Positions 10,459 to 18,882 of a stretch of 64,000 nucleotides of DNA are shown here, piece by piece (positions within the stretch are counted from its first letter, which is position 1; each line of letters begins with the position of its first letter). The position numbers and the translations under genes are program-made. The notes below the pieces were generated by a model, which saw only the letters and a list, made by a program, of their open reading frames with translations, did no database searches and was not told the DNA's origin. This stretch comes from Sphingopyxis macrogoltabida (GTDB lineage Bacteria; Pseudomonadota; Alphaproteobacteria; Sphingomonadales; Sphingomonadaceae). The DNA lies in assembly GCF_001314325.1 (NCBI RefSeq), contig NZ_CP009429.1:3720501-3784500 (forward strand), in the 5' to 3' direction.

Positions 10459-12003
10459 ATGACCAGTATCGAAATGCTTGACGGCGACTTCGCCACCCTG
10501 CCCGACCTCGTCCGTGCCCATGCCGCGGAACGTCCCGATGCCGTAGCGGCTGCCGACCCGTCGCGGCGGCTGAGCTGGTCCGAACTGGATCAATTGACCG
10601 ACCGAGTCGCCGCGCGGCTGCAGCAGGACGGCTTTGCGAAGGGCGACCGCACCGCGATCGCCGGGCTCAACAGCGTCGAACAGATGGCGGTGATCCTCGG
10701 CACGCTCCGCGCCGGCGGCGTCGCGGGGCTCGTCACCAACAGCGCGACGGGCGAGCAGATGGCGGCGATGATCGCCGACACCGGCGCGCGCCATCTGTTC
10801 CTCGACAGCGCGGCGGCGGCCAGCCTCGAAGGGCAGGTCGTGACCGCGAGCGACCGCATCGCGATGGACGGCAGCGATGCGGGCACACCGCTCGACGCCT
10901 GGCTGGCGCTCGCCGGCGCAAAGCCGGTGCACGTCGAAATACTGCCCGAAGACGGCTTCAACATCATCTATTCGTCGGGCACCACCGGCACCCCCAAAGG
11001 CATTGTGCACAGCCACGCGATGCGCTGGCAGCATATCGTCCGCGGCGCTCCGGCCTATGGCCCGCACGCGGTGACGATCCTCTCGACCCCGCTCTATTCG
11101 AACACGACGATGGCGAGTTTCATGCCGACGGTCGGCTCGGGCGGGCAGGTCGTGCTGATGAAGAAATTCGACGCGCGCGGGTTCCTCGAACTCGCCGAGC
11201 GTGAGCGCGCAACCAATACGATGCTGGTGCCGGTGCAGTACCGCCGCATCATGGCGCTCGAGGATTTCGGCCGCTTCGACCTCACCAGCTTCATCATGAA
11301 ATATTGCACCTCGGCACCGTTTCCGGCGTCGCTCAAAGCCGACGTGCTGAAGCGCTGGCCGGGCGGTCTCGTCGAAATCTATGGCATGACCGAGGGCGGC
11401 GCGGCGTTCATCCTCGAGGCGCACCAGTTCCCCGACAAGCTCCACACCGTCGGCCGCCCGGCGCCGGGCCATGTCGCGAAGGTGATCGACGAGGAGGGCA
11501 ACGAGCTGCCGCAAGGATCGGTCGGCGAAGTCGTCGGCCGCTCGCCCGCGATGATGACCGGCTACAACAACCGCCCCGACGCCACCAAGGCGATGCACTG
11601 GCACGATGCCGACGGTAACCTCTTCTATCGCCACGGCGACATCGGCCGCATCGACGAAGAGGGCTTCCTGACGCTGATGGACCGCGCCAAGGACATGATC
11701 ATCTCCGGCGGTTTCAACATCTTCCCGAGCGACCTCGAAGGCATTTTGCTCGCCGACGACCGCGTCGTCGAAGCGGCGGTGGTCGGAATGCCGAGCGAAG
11801 AGTGGGGCGAAACGCCGGTCGCCTTCGTCGTGCTCAAGGAAGGCGCCGAGGCCGAGGCGGTGCGCGCCGACTGCAACGCGAAGGTCGGCAAGACCCAGCG
11901 GCTGAGCGGCATTACCGTGCTCGAAGAATTGCCGCGCAGCCCGATCGGCAAGGTCCTGAAGCGCGAACTCCGCGACGCTTATTCGGTCAGCCCGGCCGTC
12001 TGA
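10459..12003 (+). CDS. AMP-dependent acyl-CoA synthetase (class I adenylate-forming)
   Basis: 514 residues. ANL motifs in order: YSSGTTGTPKGIVHSHAMRW (phosphate loop), EIYGMTEGGAAFI (A5), HGDIGRIDEEGF (A7), MDRAKDMIISGGFNIFPSD (hinge) and LPRSPIGKVLKRELRD (catalytic Lys). It is complete and should form an acyl-CoA from an unidentified acid. Its 3' end overlaps the convergent nadR by 25 bases. It is divergent from the degenerate response regulator, which could control it across the 81-base gap. Confidence 0.9.
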   Translation: MTSIEMLDGDFATLPDLVRAHAAERPDAVAAADPSRRLSWSELDQLTDRVAARLQQDGFAKGDRTAIAGLNSVEQMAVILGTLRAGGVAGLVTNSATGEQMAAMIADTGARHLFLDSAAAASLEGQVVTASDRIAMDGSDAGTPLDAWLALAGAKPVHVEILPEDGFNIIYSSGTTGTPKGIVHSHAMRWQHIVRGAPAYGPHAVTILSTPLYSNTTMASFMPTVGSGGQVVLMKKFDARGFLELAERERATNTMLVPVQYRRIMALEDFGRFDLTSFIMKYCTSAPFPASLKADVLKRWPGGLVEIYGMTEGGAAFILEAHQFPDKLHTVGRPAPGHVAKVIDEEGNELPQGSVGEVVGRSPAMMTGYNNRPDATKAMHWHDADGNLFYRHGDIGRIDEEGFLTLMDRAKDMIISGGFNIFPSDLEGILLADDRVVEAAVVGMPSEEWGETPVAFVVLKEGAEAEAVRADCNAKVGKTQRLSGITVLEELPRSPIGKVLKRELRDAYSVSPAV

Positions 12004-12950
12004 ATCGCCGCGAGCGCGCTGTCGAGCCGCGCATCGCCTTCGCCCTCGACCCGCGCCCAGCGAAGCCGGCGCCGTTCGAGCTCGCCGATCGCGACATCCA
12101 TGAACTGCCGCCGCGCGACATCGTTGCCGAACAGCCGCGTGCCGTCATCCTTCCACGGCAGGTCGAGTGCGGGGACGAGGTAAAGGTCGGCGACATCGGC
12201 CCATGCGTCGATTTCGGGCAGGCGCGCGCCGAGCAGCATGATCGCCCACGCCTGCGTCATCAGCGGGTCGGTGTCGGCAATCATCAGCGGGCCGGCGTGG
12301 CGGCGCAGCGCGGCGTCCATCGCGATATGGCCGGCAAAGATACGGCGGAGGTCGTCGGCGTCGAGCGCGGTTCCGAACGCCTCGCAATAGGTGCGGCCAT
12401 ATTCGGGCATCAGCACGGTGTCGAAATGGCGCGCGAGCCGGCTACCGAGGCTCGACTTGCCGACGCTTTCGGGGCCGTGGAGGACGATACGGCGGCGATA
12501 ATGGGCGCGCACGGGCTCGGCGAGCCAGCGCCACCCGGTGGCGGGATCGCCCCGCACCGCCGTGCCCGACACAGGGATCGCGGTACGGTCGATGTCGACC
12601 GGCACGAAGCGTGCGCCGACCTGCGCAGCGAGTTCCTCGCCATAGGGTTCGGAAGCGAAGACCAGATCGATCGGGTCGGGATGCGCGGCGCGGACGATAT
12701 CGGCCCAGATCACCCAGAAATCGGGATGCTCGGCGGGCTCCTGCGGCACGATGGCGCTATGGCCGACGACATCGCAGTCTGGATAAAGGTCGCGCACCCA
12801 TTGCAGCCGCAGGTTGCCGGCAACGGGATCGTCGGGCAGCGAGCAGACGAGGATCGTCAGCCGGTCGACCATCGGGCGCGCGGTCTCGATGAGCAACTGG
12901 TGCCCCGCGTGAAGCGGCAGGAATTTGCCGAGGAGGAAGCCCGTGGTCAT
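11979..12950 (-). CDS. nadR: NadR-type bifunctional NMN adenylyltransferase / nicotinamide riboside kinase
   Basis: 323 residues. The N-terminal nucleotidyltransferase motif GKFLPLHAGHQLLI makes NAD from NMN. The C-terminal kinase begins about residue 170 with the Walker A HGPESVGKSSLGSRLA and would phosphorylate nicotinamide riboside. No N-terminal HTH is present, unlike the enterobacterial NadR. Its start overlaps the pnuC stop (ATGA at 12950), which links uptake to phosphorylation. It is the last gene of a six-gene overlapping minus-strand unit headed by crtY. Confidence 0.88.
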   Translation of the reverse strand: MTTGFLLGKFLPLHAGHQLLIETARPMVDRLTILVCSLPDDPVAGNLRLQWVRDLYPDCDVVGHSAIVPQEPAEHPDFWVIWADIVRAAHPDPIDLVFASEPYGEELAAQVGARFVPVDIDRTAIPVSGTAVRGDPATGWRWLAEPVRAHYRRRIVLHGPESVGKSSLGSRLARHFDTVLMPEYGRTYCEAFGTALDADDLRRIFAGHIAMDAALRRHAGPLMIADTDPLMTQAWAIMLLGARLPEIDAWADVADLYLVPALDLPWKDDGTRLFGNDVARRQFMDVAIGELERRRLRWARVEGEGDARLDSALAAIQTAGLTE

Positions 12951-13516
12951 ATTGCCACACGCTCGTCAGCCGCCGCCCGGCGCCACTGGATCAGGCCGAC
13001 GATCGACATCAGCAGGAACAGGCCATAGAGCCCGGCAGTGAGCGTCAGCCCGCGCGAGGCGAAGAGCGGGATGGCGAGCAGGTCGACCCCGATCCACAGC
13101 CACCAATTTTCGACCATCCGCCGCGCCATCAGGATTTGCGCCGCGACACTCATCATCGCGATGGCGCCGTCGACCCACGGCGCGGCGGCGTCGGTGAAGC
13201 GCGCCATACCCGCGCTCCACACCAGCCATGCCGCGGCGATCCCCGCGGCCCATACCAGCCGGCTTTTGGGCGCCATCCAGCGCACCGGTACCTGCGCCGC
13301 GGCGCTCGCCGCGCGCCAAGCGATCCAACCGTAAATCTGCACGACGAAGAAAAAGAGCTGGAGCAGCGCATCGCTGTAAAGCTTGGTTTCATAGAAGATC
13401 AGTGCGTAGAGGCAGACCATCGCGAGCCCGAAGGGATAGTTCCAGACGTTGCGCGCGGCGACAAGCGCGACGTTGAAAAGCCCGAACACGACCGCCAGCC
13501 ATTCGAGTTCGCTCAT
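12947..13516 (-). CDS. pnuC: Nicotinamide riboside transporter PnuC
   Basis: 189 residues, mostly hydrophobic with about seven helices, the normal PnuC size. WNYPFGLAMVCLYALIFYE, FFFVVQIYGWIAWR and WWLWIGVDLLAIPLF match the family, including the aromatic substrate-site segment. It carries nicotinamide riboside by facilitated diffusion, trapped by NadR downstream. ATG 13516 overlaps the crtB stop (ATGA), so it is translationally coupled to carotenoid genes. With upstream genes overlapping, no separate promoter or NAD riboswitch is visible. Confidence 0.9.
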   Translation of the reverse strand: MSELEWLAVVFGLFNVALVAARNVWNYPFGLAMVCLYALIFYETKLYSDALLQLFFFVVQIYGWIAWRAASAAAQVPVRWMAPKSRLVWAAGIAAAWLVWSAGMARFTDAAAPWVDGAIAMMSVAAQILMARRMVENWWLWIGVDLLAIPLFASRGLTLTAGLYGLFLLMSIVGLIQWRRAAADERVAI

Positions 13517-14472
13517 GCCGCCACGCCGCGCCGCGGCCGCGTCCACAGCCCGTCGCGACTGATCCGCCGCTGCGGCGGACGGCGGAGCACCGACCAGCCG
13601 GCGCGCGCGACCCAGCCGAGCTTGGCAAACAGCGAACTGGCGGCGCGATGGTCCCACGCATGGTCGCCCCGCGCGCGCACCTCGCGCGCGATGTCGCCAT
13701 AGATGCCCGCCGCGGCGAGCACCGCCCAGCGGCTGCGCGGCGGCAGCTTGCGCGCACCCCAGCGCGCCGATGCCTCATATTCCTCGGCCATTTCGGCGAG
13801 CCATTTCGCCATCACCGACAGCCGCGGACGAAAGGCCGGGTGCATATGCTGGCCGGGCGGGATGTCGAGTTCGACCATCCACTCGACGGGCAGGTAGCAG
13901 CGGTCGGCCGCGGCATCCTCGGCGACGTCGCGCGCGATATTCGCAAGCTGGAACGCGATACCGAGGTCGGACGCCCGGTCGAGCGTCGTTTCGTCGCCGG
14001 GCCCCACCCCCATCACCAGCGCCATCGCGACCCCGACCGCGCCCGCGACATGATAGCTGTAGCGGAGCAGGTCGCTCTCGCTGCGCGGACGCCAGTCCTT
14101 CGCATCGAGTTCGAAGCCGGCGATAATATCGTGGATCACCGCGCGCGGGATATCGACTTCGGTCAGCAACAGGCCGAGCGCATCGAAGGCGGCTTCGCCC
14201 GTCGGCTCGCCGGCAAAGGCCCGGTCGGTCTGCGCGCGGATATGCGCGACCGCCGCCGCCGGATCGTGGTTCGGCTTCATTGCGCCGCCGTGATCCTGCC
14301 CGTCGGTCAGGTCGTCGGCGGCGCGGCACCAGGCATAGAGCAGCCACACCCGCTCGCGCGTTTCGCGGTCGAAGAGCTGGCTGGCGAGCGCGAAACTTTT
14401 CGATCCGCGCGCGATGCTGTCGTGCGCGAAACCGTGGAGGGCGTGCGCGTCATAGGCCCCCGCTTCAGCCAT
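13513..14472 (-). CDS. crtB: Phytoene synthase
   Basis: 319 residues. Condenses two geranylgeranyl diphosphates to 15-cis-phytoene. Both Mg-binding aspartate-rich regions are present: AADDLTDG and LANIARDVAEDAAADRCYLP. The squalene/phytoene synthase fold covers residues about 15-280, and the last 35 residues are basic and variable. The start at 14472 overlaps the stop of the LOG gene by one base (TAATG), and its stop overlaps pnuC. GGPP synthase (crtE) is not in the window. Confidence 0.93.
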   Translation of the reverse strand: MAEAGAYDAHALHGFAHDSIARGSKSFALASQLFDRETRERVWLLYAWCRAADDLTDGQDHGGAMKPNHDPAAAVAHIRAQTDRAFAGEPTGEAAFDALGLLLTEVDIPRAVIHDIIAGFELDAKDWRPRSESDLLRYSYHVAGAVGVAMALVMGVGPGDETTLDRASDLGIAFQLANIARDVAEDAAADRCYLPVEWMVELDIPPGQHMHPAFRPRLSVMAKWLAEMAEEYEASARWGARKLPPRSRWAVLAAAGIYGDIAREVRARGDHAWDHRAASSLFAKLGWVARAGWSVLRRPPQRRISRDGLWTRPRRGVAA

Positions 14473-15053
14473 TAAAGATCGTCGGCCTTCATCGCAAAGA
14501 TCGGCGCATGCGGTTCATAAGCCGCCATCTTGGCGAGCAGCTCGTCGAGCCCCGCATCGACGATCATGATCCCGGCGTGCGCCGCGCGGACGAAGCCGAC
14601 ATCGATCATCTTGCGGTTGAAGGCGATGAGGTCGTTATAGAAACCTGCGGTGTTGAGCAGCCCGACCGGCTTGTTGTGATAACCGAGCTGCGCCCAGCTG
14701 ATCGCTTCCCACAATTCGTCCATCGTCCCGACCCCGCCGGGAATGGTCAGGAAACCGTCGCTGAGGTCGGTGAACATCCGCTTGCGCTCGTGCATCCCCG
14801 AAACGACATGCAGTTCGGTGCAGCCGCGATGCGCGACCTCGGCACCGACGAGCGCGTCGGGGATGATGCCGATCACCTCGCCGCCTGCCTCCAGGGCACT
14901 ATCGGCGACCGCGCCCATCAGGCCTAGCCGGCCGCCGCCATAGACGACGCCGATCCCCCGCTCGGCAAGCGTCCGGCCGACGTGGCGCGCGGTCTGGAGA
15001 TAGACGGGATCCTCGGGGCTCGCGGATCCGCAATAAACGGCAAGGCGTTTCAT
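14472..15053 (-). CDS. LOG-family nucleoside 5'-monophosphate phosphoribohydrolase
   Basis: 193 residues. LOG (TIGR00730) features are complete: MKRLAVYCGSA, VVYGGGRLGLMG, MHERKRMF and the signature PGGVGTMDELWE. Characterised members release a base from N6-modified AMP (cytokinin activation) or from other nucleotides such as AMP; annotation as lysine decarboxylase is historical. It is inserted between crtI and crtB with 4-base and 1-base overlaps, so it is expressed with the carotenoid genes. Its physiological substrate here is unknown. Confidence 0.9.
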   Translation of the reverse strand: MKRLAVYCGSASPEDPVYLQTARHVGRTLAERGIGVVYGGGRLGLMGAVADSALEAGGEVIGIIPDALVGAEVAHRGCTELHVVSGMHERKRMFTDLSDGFLTIPGGVGTMDELWEAISWAQLGYHNKPVGLLNTAGFYNDLIAFNRKMIDVGFVRAAHAGIMIVDAGLDELLAKMAAYEPHAPIFAMKADDL

Positions 15054-16528
15054 GATTCTTCCAACATCAATTGGGCGGTCGCCTTGGCGCTGCCGACGAC
15101 CCCCGGGATACCCGCGCCCGGATGCGTCCCCGCGCCGACGAAGTAAAGGTTCGAAATATCGTCGTCGCGGTTGTGGGCGCGAAACCAGGCGCTCTGCCAC
15201 AGCAGCGGTTCGAGGCTGAACGCGCTCCCCAGATGCGCCGACAGGTCGCGGCCGAAATCGGCGGGGGTGTAGTGGAAGCGGGTGACGAGATTGGCGCGTA
15301 GTCCCGGCAACACGCGCCGCTCGACCTCCGCGAGGATCGCGTCGGCAAAGCGCTCACCGAACGCACCGTCCCAGTCCGCCGCCGCCTTGCCGAGATGCGC
15401 GACCGGCGCGAGCGCATAGAAGGTCGCGTGCCCCGGCGGCGCCATGCCGTGGTCGGTAATGCTCGGATGGTGGAGATAGAGCGAGAAGTCGTCGGGAATA
15501 ACGCCGCCCCGATAGATGTCGTCGAGCAGCCCCTTGTAGCGCGGGCCGAACAATATGCTGTGATGCGCGATATCGGGATATTCGCCTTTCACCCCGAAAT
15601 GGACGACGAACAACGACGGCGACCAGCGCTTGCGCGACAGGCCGCGCGCGACCTTGGCGCCGCGCGGATGGTCGAGCAGATCGCGGTAGCTGTGCATCAG
15701 GTCGCCGTTGCACGCGATCATATCGGCCTCGCCGTGCCAGCCGCTTTGCGTCGTGACGCCCGTCGCGCGGTCGCCCGCGGTTGCAATCTTCACGACCGCG
15801 TCGCCGAGCCGCAATGTCCCGCCCAGCCGCTCGAACAACCGCACCATGCCGCCGACCAGCGCATTGGTGCCGCCGCGCGCGAACCACACGCCGCCCTGCT
15901 TCTCGATCGTGTGGATCAGCGCATAGATCGCGCTCGTCGTCATCGGATTGCCGCCGACGAGCAGCGTGTGGAACGACAGCGCCTGCCGCAGCCGCTCGTC
16001 CTCCACATAAGAAGACACCGTCGCATAGACGCTGCGCCACGCCCGATATTTCATCAGCGCCGGTGCCGCCCTGATCATCGACGCGAAGTCGAGGAACGCG
16101 ACCGCGCCGAGCTTGACATAACCCTGCTCGTACACGCCGCGCGAATAATCGAGGAAGCGGTCATAGCCGGCGACGTCGGCAGGGCAGAGCTTCGCGATCT
16201 CGGCGCGGAGCGCCGCCTCGTCGTTCGAATAATCGAAATTCGTCCCGTCGGGCCAGTTCAGCCGGTAAAAGGGCATCACGGGGACAAGGTCGACATCGGC
16301 CGCCATATCCTGTCCCGAGAGCGCCCACAGTTCACGAAGGCACGGCGGGTCGGTGACCACCGTCGGCCCCGCATCGAAGGTAAAGCCGTCCTTCACCCAG
16401 TGATACGCCCGGCCGCCGGGCTTGTCGCGCGCCTCGACCACCGTGGTTGCGACTCCCGCCGATTGCAGCCGGATCGCGAGCGCGAGCCCGCCGAACCCGG
16501 CGCCGATGACGATGGCGCGGCGCGTCAT
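15050..16528 (-). CDS. crtI: Phytoene desaturase
   Basis: 492 residues. Bacterial CrtI converts phytoene to neurosporene or lycopene with FAD. The N-terminal dinucleotide motif is VIGAGFGGLALAIRL. The C-terminal CrtI signature region contains NLYFVGAGTHPGAGIPGVVG. ATG 16528 overlaps the crtY stop (ATGA) and its own stop overlaps the LOG start (ATGA). The length and motif set suggest a four-step desaturase giving lycopene, which crtY can then cyclise. Confidence 0.93.
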   Translation of the reverse strand: MTRRAIVIGAGFGGLALAIRLQSAGVATTVVEARDKPGGRAYHWVKDGFTFDAGPTVVTDPPCLRELWALSGQDMAADVDLVPVMPFYRLNWPDGTNFDYSNDEAALRAEIAKLCPADVAGYDRFLDYSRGVYEQGYVKLGAVAFLDFASMIRAAPALMKYRAWRSVYATVSSYVEDERLRQALSFHTLLVGGNPMTTSAIYALIHTIEKQGGVWFARGGTNALVGGMVRLFERLGGTLRLGDAVVKIATAGDRATGVTTQSGWHGEADMIACNGDLMHSYRDLLDHPRGAKVARGLSRKRWSPSLFVVHFGVKGEYPDIAHHSILFGPRYKGLLDDIYRGGVIPDDFSLYLHHPSITDHGMAPPGHATFYALAPVAHLGKAAADWDGAFGERFADAILAEVERRVLPGLRANLVTRFHYTPADFGRDLSAHLGSAFSLEPLLWQSAWFRAHNRDDDISNLYFVGAGTHPGAGIPGVVGSAKATAQLMLEES

Positions 16529-17682
16529 TTCCAGTCGAAACGCCGCAGCGCCGTCAGCGCGCGGCCGACCGGCACCGGCGGCTTGCCCGACAGGATGCGC
16601 AGCTTGTCCGCAGTTCGCGATTGCCCAGCATAGAAGCGCGCGACGAGGCCCGCCGGCAAACGGTAGAAGCGCTGGAATATCCGGTAGCGCTCGTCGGGTT
16701 CGGCGGCCCGGAACAGCATCGCGCCGAGCATGCGATAGAAGCGCTGGCGCCGCCACGATGCGGCAGCGCGTGCGCGCAGCGCCGCAGCCAGATCGCGGCG
16801 GTCGGCAAGTTCGGGCAACGCCGCCGCCGTCCGCACCGCGTCAGGCAGCGAATAGCCGGTCGTCGCATGGAAGGTCCCGGCGCGCACGCCGATCCGCGCG
16901 GTGCGGTCGGATGCCGGCCACAGGCGATCGAAATCGCCGCCGATCACCACTGGCAGCACGCCCGTCTCCTCGCGGGTCACCGCCGCCACCTCCCATTGCC
17001 GCGCTTCGGCATAGGCGGCGATGCGGTCGCGGATCGCCGCGACGTCGAGCTCGGCGCCGTCGCTGTAATAAGTATCCTCGACGAACAAGGTTTCGGCATC
17101 GAAGGGCAAGAGATAGACGAAGCGATAGCCATCCACCTGTTCGACGCTGGCATCCATGACGACGGGCCGGTCGACGCCGTGCCCGCCCGCGATCGTCAGC
17201 GCCTGTCCGACGAATTTCTGCCAGCCGCACTCGATCGCCGGGTTTTTCACCGCACCGCGCGCATCGATGACATGGCGGGCCGACAATCGCCCGCCGCGCG
17301 CCAGCAGCACATGGTCGGGTGCGACATGCTTTGCCTTTTCGGCGATGATGCGATCCTCGGGCAACGTCGCCGCGACCGCCTCGGCCAGCGCCTCGCCGGT
17401 GATGCTCTTATATCCCATCCGCAACGTGCGGCGATGCGCCGGAAAGCAGACGCCATATTTTTCCCAATGGTAACGCACCAGCGGCGCGACCAGCCAGCGG
17501 TCCTTTTTCGCAATGTCGCTGTCGAAGAAGGACCAGACGTGGTTGCCGCCGATCGGACCCGGCTCGACCAGCCGGACGTCGAGGTCGGGACGCTTCGCCG
17601 CGAGCGCCAGCGCCGCGAGCCCGCCGGCGAGCCCGCCGCCGACGATCGCGATGTCGCATTTGCCGAGATCCCTCGCCGCCAT
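16525..17682 (-). CDS. crtY: Lycopene beta-cyclase
   Basis: 385 residues. CrtY-type flavoprotein that cyclises lycopene to beta-carotene. The N-terminus holds the FAD motif DIAIVGGGLAGGLAALAL, then GGNHVWSFFDSD, typical of bacterial CrtY, and FVEDTYYSDGAELD and TFHATTGYSLPDAVR further on. It is the first gene of the minus-strand unit, so the promoter should lie in the 74 bases before the divergent hydroxylase gene. Confidence 0.92.
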   Translation of the reverse strand: MAARDLGKCDIAIVGGGLAGGLAALALAAKRPDLDVRLVEPGPIGGNHVWSFFDSDIAKKDRWLVAPLVRYHWEKYGVCFPAHRRTLRMGYKSITGEALAEAVAATLPEDRIIAEKAKHVAPDHVLLARGGRLSARHVIDARGAVKNPAIECGWQKFVGQALTIAGGHGVDRPVVMDASVEQVDGYRFVYLLPFDAETLFVEDTYYSDGAELDVAAIRDRIAAYAEARQWEVAAVTREETGVLPVVIGGDFDRLWPASDRTARIGVRAGTFHATTGYSLPDAVRTAAALPELADRRDLAAALRARAAASWRRQRFYRMLGAMLFRAAEPDERYRIFQRFYRLPAGLVARFYAGQSRTADKLRILSGKPPVPVGRALTALRRFDWK

Positions 17683-17756
17683 GCCACAGCCCTAGCCGTC
17701 CTGTTGCCCGCACGCAAAGCCATTGCAACGCGCCGTGGAGCGGCTAGCCTTCCGTC

Positions 17757-18527
17757 GTGACCGGTTGGCCGATCCTTTATTCCGCCTTGGCGATGACGGC
17801 GATCGTCGGCGTCCGCTATCTGATCAGCAGCGGCGGCTTCGCGCTCGCGACGCGGCTGAAGCATCCCGGCCTCTATCGCGGGCTCGAAGGACAGATGCGG
17901 CGCGAGATCGGCTGGAGCCTCGCCAGCGCCGCCATCTACGGCATTCCTGCCGGTATCGTCGCCTGGGGCTGGCAGGCGCATGGCTGGACGCGCATCTACA
18001 GCGACTGGAACGCCCTGCCGCTCTGGTATCTGCCCGTCAGCCTCTTCGCCTATCTGCTTATCCACGACACATGGTTCTACTGGACGCATCGCTGGATGCA
18101 CCGTCCCGCCCTGTTCCGCCTCGCGCACAGCGTCCATCACGACAGCCGCCCGCCGACCGCATGGGCGGCGATGAGCTTTCACCCGCTCGAGGCGATCACC
18201 GGCGCGGTCGTCATCCCGGCGCTCGTCTTCCTGATCCCGATCCATGTCGCCATGCTGGGCCTCGTCCTTGCGCTCATGACATTGATGGGGGTGGGCAATC
18301 ATATGGGGTGGGAGATGTTCCCGCGCGCGCTTGTCCATGGACCCGCGGGCCGCTGGCTGATAACCGCGACGCACCACGAACGGCATCACGCCGCCTACCG
18401 GGGGAATTATGGTCTCTATTTCCGTTTCTGGGACAAGGCGTGCGGCACGGATATCGGGTTGGGCGACTTTGGGGGCAGCCTTGATGCTGCTCACCGCCGC
18501 CGCAAGCGCGCCGCCGCCGAAGGTTGA
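17757..18527 (+). CDS. Sterol desaturase/fatty acid hydroxylase family protein, candidate carotenoid hydroxylase
   Basis: 256 residues from a GTG start. Membrane di-iron hydroxylase with all three histidine boxes: HDTWFYWTHRWMH, HSVHH and HHERHH, among four or so hydrophobic helices. The C-terminus LYFRFWDKACGTD is also family-typical. It is divergent from crtY at 74 bases, so it may hydroxylate beta-carotene (CrtZ-like role), although classic CrtZ is shorter (about 160-175 residues). Lipid or hopanoid hydroxylation cannot be excluded. Its 3' end overlaps the next gene. Confidence 0.8.
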   Translation: MTGWPILYSALAMTAIVGVRYLISSGGFALATRLKHPGLYRGLEGQMRREIGWSLASAAIYGIPAGIVAWGWQAHGWTRIYSDWNALPLWYLPVSLFAYLLIHDTWFYWTHRWMHRPALFRLAHSVHHDSRPPTAWAAMSFHPLEAITGAVVIPALVFLIPIHVAMLGLVLALMTLMGVGNHMGWEMFPRALVHGPAGRWLITATHHERHHAAYRGNYGLYFRFWDKACGTDIGLGDFGGSLDAAHRRRKRAAAEG

Positions 18528-18882
18528 GGTCAGCGTCACCGGCCTGCGCAGCATGAAAGGGCAGCTCCTCGTCTGCCTGACCACCAACCCCAAGGCCTTT
18601 CCCGATTGCAGCAAGGACAAGACGTCGGTGCGCATGGCGGTGAAGGCGGCCGACGCGGACGACTTCGTCGTCCACGCGCCCGCCACTGGCACCTATGCGA
18701 TTGCCGTCGTCCATGACGAAAACAGCAACAACAAGATGGATGTCGCGATCTTCCTGCCCAAGGAAGGCTTCGGCTTTTCGCGCAACCCGACGATTACCGT
18801 CGGCCCGCCGAGCTTCAGATCGGCGAGCTTCGCGGTCGCGGGCGACATCCGCCAGTCGATCAAGATGAAATATATGCTGTAA
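18409..18882 (+). CDS. DUF2141 domain exported protein
   Basis: 157 residues if it starts at ATG 18409, which has GGGGG five bases upstream and gives a good signal peptide (RR near residues 10-11, then hydrophobic WATLGAALMLLTAAASA). The mature part (VEVSVTGLRSMKGQLLVCL to SFAVAGDIRQSIKMKYML) matches DUF2141, with the typical AVVHDENSNNKMD segment. This start makes a 119-base out-of-frame overlap with the hydroxylase gene. ATG 18484 would leave no usable signal peptide. Function is unknown. Confidence 0.75.
   Translation: MVSISVSGTRRAARISGWATLGAALMLLTAAASAPPPKVEVSVTGLRSMKGQLLVCLTTNPKAFPDCSKDKTSVRMAVKAADADDFVVHAPATGTYAIAVVHDENSNNKMDVAIFLPKEGFGFSRNPTITVGPPSFRSASFAVAGDIRQSIKMKYML

Follow-up and report, generated by a model that had tools for sequence, protein, structure and literature searches.

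What could hold genes for carotenoid synthesis, a nucleotide phosphoribohydrolase of the LOG family, and the salvage of nicotinamide riboside (NR) together in a single, tightly overlapped operon? The question is raised by a 64,000-nucleotide (nt) stretch of the Sphingopyxis macrogoltabida genome (contig NZ_CP009429.1, positions 3,720,501 to 3,784,500; hereafter the window), in which crtY, crtI, LOG, crtB, pnuC, and a nadR-like gene follow one another on the minus strand. A first-pass annotation had reported this order with overlaps of 4, 4, 1, 4, and 4 nt, and the coordinates of the open reading frames (ORFs) agree with it exactly. We consider it likely that this is a composite operon that arose by accretion, not the expression of one pathway. 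On comparative grounds its parts are three separable modules, namely crtYIB, LOG, and the NR salvage cassette, and it is this separability, together with the contexts in which the modules occur outside the genus, that favours accretion. The six genes of the window are as follows (positions within the window).

16525..17682, minus strand: crtY, lycopene beta-cyclase (TIGR01789, 447 bits, cut-off 215)
15050..16528, minus strand: crtI, phytoene desaturase (TIGR02734, 658 bits, cut-off 238); 4-nt overlap with crtY
14472..15053, minus strand: LOG-family nucleotide phosphoribohydrolase (TIGR00730, 188 bits, cut-off 96; PF03641); 4-nt overlap with crtI
13513..14472, minus strand: crtB, phytoene synthase (SQS_PSY, PF00494, 211 bits, cut-off 26, and operon place); 1-nt overlap with LOG
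12947..13516, minus strand: pnuC, NR transporter (TIGR01528, 117 bits, cut-off 42; PF04973); 4-nt overlap with crtB; first gene of the swapped cassette
11979..12950, minus strand: nadR-like gene (AAA_28, 72 bits, cut-off 27), with a nicotinamide mononucleotide (NMN) adenylyltransferase part at about residues 1-140 and an NR-kinase part at about 153-321; 4-nt overlap with pnuC

The junctions read ATGA (crtY/crtI, crtI/LOG, crtB/pnuC, and pnuC/nadR) or TAATG (LOG/crtB).

Conservation of the Gene Order

In a set of 80 Sphingopyxis genomes (70 of good quality, 75 with crtB), crtB and pnuC are adjacent by their coordinates in all the 72 genomes having both genes, the remaining eight comprising three with crtB and no pnuC, three with pnuC and no crtB, and two with neither. 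The arrangement is thus present across the genus, which rules out an accident of one strain and bears out the idea of a tightly overlapped unit of wider occurrence. The order crtB-pnuC-kinase was found in 41 of 42 genus loci, S. granuli NBRC 100800 being the exception, and pnuC and kinase genes adjoin crtB in 38 of the 40 loci fetched around this gene (from 40 of the 75 crtB genomes); the two sets overlap and their counts are not to be summed. A survey of the junctions in 48 genus loci, the window included, with starts chosen nearest to the window's start, revealed overlaps at 43/44 crtY/crtI, 15/44 crtI/LOG, 39/45 LOG/crtB, and 45/45 pnuC/kinase junctions, and the 4-nt overlap between crtB and pnuC is kept in 40 of the 42 loci with both genes. 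On the far side of the cassette, the kinase gene has a convergent ligA within 600 nt in only 20 of 42 loci (one of the remainder is undecided, at the end of its stretch).

The junction between crtI and LOG is a loose joint, with a spacer of 22-244 nt in 29 of 44 genus loci. Many of these spacers are palindromic and, by eye, of at least three kinds resembling dispersed repeats, in different Sphingopyxis genomes; a repeat-like element also follows LOG in one locus (L323, about 1168-1250). The window keeps an ancestral-looking 4-nt overlap at this point, and its nearest relative, G172, carries a 98-nt element.

Beyond the genus, we analyzed a sample of 159 genomes of the family, with pnuC in 35, crtB in 140, and LOG (E <= 1e-30) in 146. 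It had been proposed to look for the same order across genera: the crt-LOG part is indeed kept across this sample, whereas the pnuC part is not, since crtB adjoins pnuC in none of the 27 genomes of other genera harboring both (17 have both genes on a single contig, separated by 94 kb or more, and 10 have them on different contigs).

Origin of the crtB-pnuC Link

The neighbourhood of pnuC in other genera was examined at 12 kb in 13 of 32 such genomes. In six of them lepA lies downstream within about 2 kb, in five an arsC-like gene stands just upstream, and in two there is neither. The arsC-like reductase gene directly precedes the salvage cassette in loci L245, L247, L248, L249, and L251. In the deep-branch genomes G170 and G230, tamB, crtY-crtI-LOG-crtB, pnuC-kinase, and lepA are consecutive, crtB and pnuC being 153 and 50 nt apart, respectively; in G044, from another genus, crtB adjoins lepA and no pnuC is found there. 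The crt genes perhaps came to lie beside a pnuC-kinase unit on the lepA side, with tightening and relocation occurring later in the core genus.

The pnuC-nadR and pnuC-NR-kinase pairs of other Sphingomonadaceae resemble the window in that the transporter is followed by an NR kinase, with or without an adenylyltransferase, the two genes being paired in most of the loci read. They differ in that the pair of the window is presumably tied translationally to phytoene synthase, whereas theirs stand by lepA, arsC-like, or other genes.

Types and Exchange of the Salvage Cassette

The cassette exists in two forms, pnuC-kinase and pnuC-NadR. Among the 38 fetched genus loci, NadR was matched over its whole length in three and only from residue 107-155 on, that is, in the kinase part, in 35; the window represents a fourth case of a two-part NadR. 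The pnuC genes of the four NadR-type genomes form one clade (support 98/93) beside the clade of 37 core pnuC genes of the kinase type (100/98). Their genomes fall in three places on the tree of crtI-LOG-crtB, with four label changes, at least three of which are forced by the starred branches (quick method), and the window groups with the kinase-type G172 at support 100.

The comparison of these two close relatives at the DNA level, per 100 nt, gave 84-99% identity towards crtB and 91-100% towards the ligase gene; in between, identity is 57-77% from the start of pnuC to about 12,100 and then 86%, and a block of about 450 nt, corresponding to the adenylyltransferase part, is absent from G172. 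The pair G190 and G186 exhibits the same drop at pnuC, with different downstream flanks. To judge from this sharp drop, from the single clade of NadR-type pnuC genes, and from the three places on the crt tree, the salvage cassette of the window strain is one that was replaced in place.

The idea that the adenylyltransferase part of NadR is required was considered and set aside: nadD was matched in all 11 genus genomes examined, of both kinase and NadR types, although every match lies below the curated cut-off of the family, so that this part of the protein is probably redundant.

LOG in the crt Operon

Of the 140 crtB-bearing genomes in the family sample, 101 have LOG as the immediate upstream neighbour of crtB on the same strand. 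A second LOG at E <= 1e-30 occurs in four of these 101, and LOG is found elsewhere in 35 of the other 39 (in two of these 35 as a crt-type LOG beside a crtI); Fisher's test of linkage versus LOG elsewhere gives p of about 5e-24, a value that, the genomes being related, is only a guide. Within Sphingopyxis, LOG is present in 79 of 80 genomes and in all 70 of good quality (crtB and pnuC in 68 of 70 each), and seven of the 80 carry a second LOG about 50% identical to the first. An extension of the link beyond the family was rejected: in a class sample of 190 genomes, crtB (E <= 1e-25) was detected in 22, 19 of them outside the family, and no LOG was found beside it in these 19, within flanks of up to 1.5 kb, some of which were ended by the contig. 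One genome, G061, has two crt loci, the first with crtI-LOG and no crtB, the other with crtI, crtB, crtY, and a crtG-like gene in a different order.

The window LOG harbors the motif PGGVGTMDE (PGGxGTxxE), as well as MHERK in the structure alignment, and its closest solved structures are the LOGs 5zbj/5zbk. It shares length, PGGxGTxxE motif, and full-length similarity with bacterial LOGs (PDB 5zbj/5zbk, 5its, 1t35) and differs from them in being encoded inside a carotenoid operon. The model specific for cytokinin LOGs, NF058542, was missed (146 versus 300 bits). Several bacterial LOGs are reported to have been assayed with adenosine monophosphate (AMP) only (review, PMC8234997), and one binds several monophosphates (PMC6864091). 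The window LOG would be a nucleoside-monophosphate hydrolase. A Pfam search revealed a third, more distant member of the family in the same genome.

Part of this picture has been described before. Siddaramappa et al. 2018 (PMC5989583) report that 24 of 41 Sphingomonadales strains have LOG placed between crtI and crtB, give LOG and DUF2141 as keywords, and suggest a link to cytokinins through dimethylallyl diphosphate (DMAPP). Their paper also identifies as LOG the ORF between crtI and crtB of Sphingomonas elodea, whose deletion left nostoxanthin unchanged according to Zhu et al. 2012 (PMC3324416); log is likewise placed within Qipengyuania crt clusters in a 2025 paper (PMC12476985). The first-pass annotation knew of no description of the coupling, which was mistaken for crtI-LOG-crtB, already in print; for the link of the salvage cassette to crtB, no publication tying pnuC to carotenoids or crtB was found among the matches listed, in a search mostly outside the subscription literature. 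Two of the papers listed match carotenoid and crtB alongside nadR or NR terms (PMC10765411, PMC8247775). Compared with the loci of 2018, the window has the same crtY-crtI-LOG-crtB order and short overlaps, and a crtG-like gene stands with a DUF2141 gene on its opposite strand; pnuC and nadR genes behind crtB, LOG copy number, and retention of LOG after crt loss are not mentioned in the accessible text of that work.

Loss of Single Modules

The modules have been lost separately in several genomes. In G166 pnuC-kinase is gone and crt stays; G179 has lost crtY, crtI, and pnuC-kinase and keeps LOG-crtB; in S. granuli (G165) crtY, crtI, and crtB are gone from the locus, where LOG remains with the salvage genes. 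In G193, a draft that is 88% complete, LOG has ligA as its neighbour and both crt and pnuC are missing from the locus, and G214 and G231 have lost crt and keep LOG, followed two ORFs on by pnuC-kinase. In all six genomes LOG is a full-length match. A second crtI, 70% identical, is located elsewhere in S. granuli (L321, 4754-6208) and in its relative G193 (L322, 5983-7437), and no crtB match was found in either genome. Among other genera, a crt-type LOG occurs in three of 19 crtB-less genomes, two of which have crtI (G123, G133) and one (G067) no crtI match at all.

Relaxed selection on LOG after the loss of crt was not seen. In 618 crt-bearing pairs of comparable dS, the ratio of non-synonymous to synonymous substitution rates (dN/dS) has a median of 0.11. 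The pairs without crt gave 0.11 (G165 versus G193) and 0.08 (G214 versus G231), although some of their divergence may be older than the losses. LOG looks like a cell-wide function lodged in the crt locus, not a step of pigment synthesis.

Annotation, Flanking Genes, and Promoter Region

Three of the gene names deserve a comment. The CrtB equivalog NF042419 scored below its cut-off (274 versus 480 bits), and we therefore name crtB on homology to PF00494 and operon place. The NadR-like protein matches TIGR01526 over its full length (residues 1-305, 221 bits) but misses the curated cut-off of 341, for which reason we call it NadR-like; its two-part chain of adenylyltransferase and kinase is similar over the full length to structures 9x6f and 1lw7, with CTP_transf_like just below cut-off. 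PnuC matches the solved PnuC 4qtn at E 1.8e-16, and its NR-kinase neighbour suggests that it would transport NR. The surroundings of the operon comprise:

17683..17756, unstranded: intergenic region of 74 nt between the crtG-like gene and crtY, predicted as the likely operon promoter region
17757..18527, plus strand: crtG-like gene of the fatty-acid-hydroxylase family (PF04116), divergent, placed as the crtG of the 2018 description
18409..18882, plus strand: DUF2141 gene (PF09912) beside the crtG-like gene, true start within the ORF uncertain
10459..12003, plus strand: acyl-CoA ligase gene (PF00501), right flank of the swapped cassette

The acyl-CoA ligase gene and nadR overlap tail to tail by 25 nt at their 3' ends. 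The window fits the 2018 description of crtYI-LOG-crtB in the crtY/crtI overlap of 1-8 bp (here 4 nt) and in the LOG ORF between crtI and crtB. PF04116 and PF09912 genes are in place on the opposite strand, the name crtG being given by family and position only.

The spacer between crtG and crtY (17683-17756) resembles, by eye, its counterparts in many genus loci in both length and sequence, and about 10 bases before the start of crtY it contains a block resembling GCTAGGGC, so that a nearly leaderless transcript might be possible. The Caulobacter-type promoter pattern consists of TTG, 13-17 nt, and GCTANNNC. A scan for it over the operon region on both strands gave no site, a weak result, as the stretch before crtY was also unmatched.

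Forces Behind the Assembly of the Operon

From these comparisons we infer a route of operon assembly, together with a single transcript and the activities of the enzymes. A promoter ahead of crtY would probably drive all six genes as one transcript, with translational coupling presumed at the overlaps. By homology, CrtY, CrtI, and CrtB should lead from geranylgeranyl diphosphate (GGPP) to beta-carotene, while PnuC should import NR for conversion by the NadR-like enzyme to NMN and NAD. LOG would be an ordinary nucleotide phosphoribohydrolase, usually the sole close LOG of the cell, situated in the crt operon in a large part of the family and retained for a function of its own. The salvage cassette would have joined the crtB end in the Sphingopyxis lineage, perhaps through the landing of crt beside a lepA-side pnuC-kinase; the junction would then have tightened to the 4-nt overlap and, in the window strain, the resident pnuC-kinase would have been exchanged for pnuC-NadR, presumably through recombination between homologous flanking sequences.

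We regard accretion as the likely explanation and prefer it to a selected coupling of pigment and NAD, which seems unlikely to us. According to the latter hypothesis, NR salvage would be co-expressed with phytoene synthase since the need for carotenoids, under light or oxidative stress, is also a need for NAD(P) renewal. The tight crtB-pnuC junction does leave room for selected co-expression: the adjacency is invariable (72/72), in four strains, that of the window included, the slot was refilled with another salvage cassette instead of being emptied, and the 4-nt overlap is firm (40/42) where the other flank is disrupted in roughly half of the loci, an argument against mere inertia and the best evidence for such a coupling. 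However, none of the 27 genomes of other genera with both genes links them, the cassette persists without crtB (G165, G214, G231) as crt does without the cassette (G166), and in other genera the cassettes stand by lepA or arsC-like genes. It is possible that NAD supply is coordinated with pigment synthesis; that the crt end of Sphingopyxis is a selected slot, with salvage cassettes swapped between species because NAD renewal must rise with carotenogenesis, appears doubtful. Some points do weigh against the reading by accretion. The firm crtB/pnuC joint beside a loose ligA flank (20/42), and swaps that keep a salvage unit in the slot, suggest more than hitchhiking; the deep-branch pnuC genes cluster with those of other genera in the pnuC tree, which speaks against a single simple descent of the link; and the window genome is itself among the four with a second LOG (G000:C1:4177319-4177852, 49% identical to the crt LOG and of the kind seen in seven of the 80 Sphingopyxis genomes).

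As for LOG, the suggestion of 2018 (PMC5989583) would make it a pigment-related cytokinin enzyme sharing the DMAPP pool with carotenoids. The PGGxGTxxE motif is kept in the window LOG and the link to crt is family-wide, in agreement with this proposal, but we hold it to be improbable in view of the NF058542 score, the unchanged nostoxanthin of the S. elodea deletion (PMC3324416), and the retention of LOG, under constraint, in genomes without crt. The same deletion and the intact LOG genes of crt-less loci also speak against the broader expectation that LOG serves the pigment. Less probable still is the idea of the first-pass annotation that LOG partners PnuC and NadR, for example by splitting NMN or feeding ribose-5-phosphate. 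In S. granuli, whose locus has lost crtB, crtI, and crtY, LOG still accompanies the salvage genes; outside the genus, though, no LOG of the family sample lies within 10 kb of a pnuC, while it precedes crtB in 98 other-genus genomes, and within the genus G166, G179, and G193 keep LOG without pnuC, and two other ORFs separate LOG and pnuC in G214 and G231. A role for LOG as an NMN enzyme tied to pnuC was consequently abandoned. The likelihoods given here need not add up to unity, because the readings specific to LOG are compatible with the others.

The case warns against taking the overlap of genes in an operon as proof of a single pathway. The natural series of losses, in which crt has gone without LOG, pnuC without crt, or everything but LOG, bears on the question, left open in 2018, of why LOG stands in crt loci, and the exchange of pnuC-kinase for pnuC-NadR is a clear example of a cassette replaced at the end of an operon. 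The near-identical pairs (the window strain and G172, G190 and G186) suit a test of how important the co-expression of NAD salvage and pigment synthesis may be.

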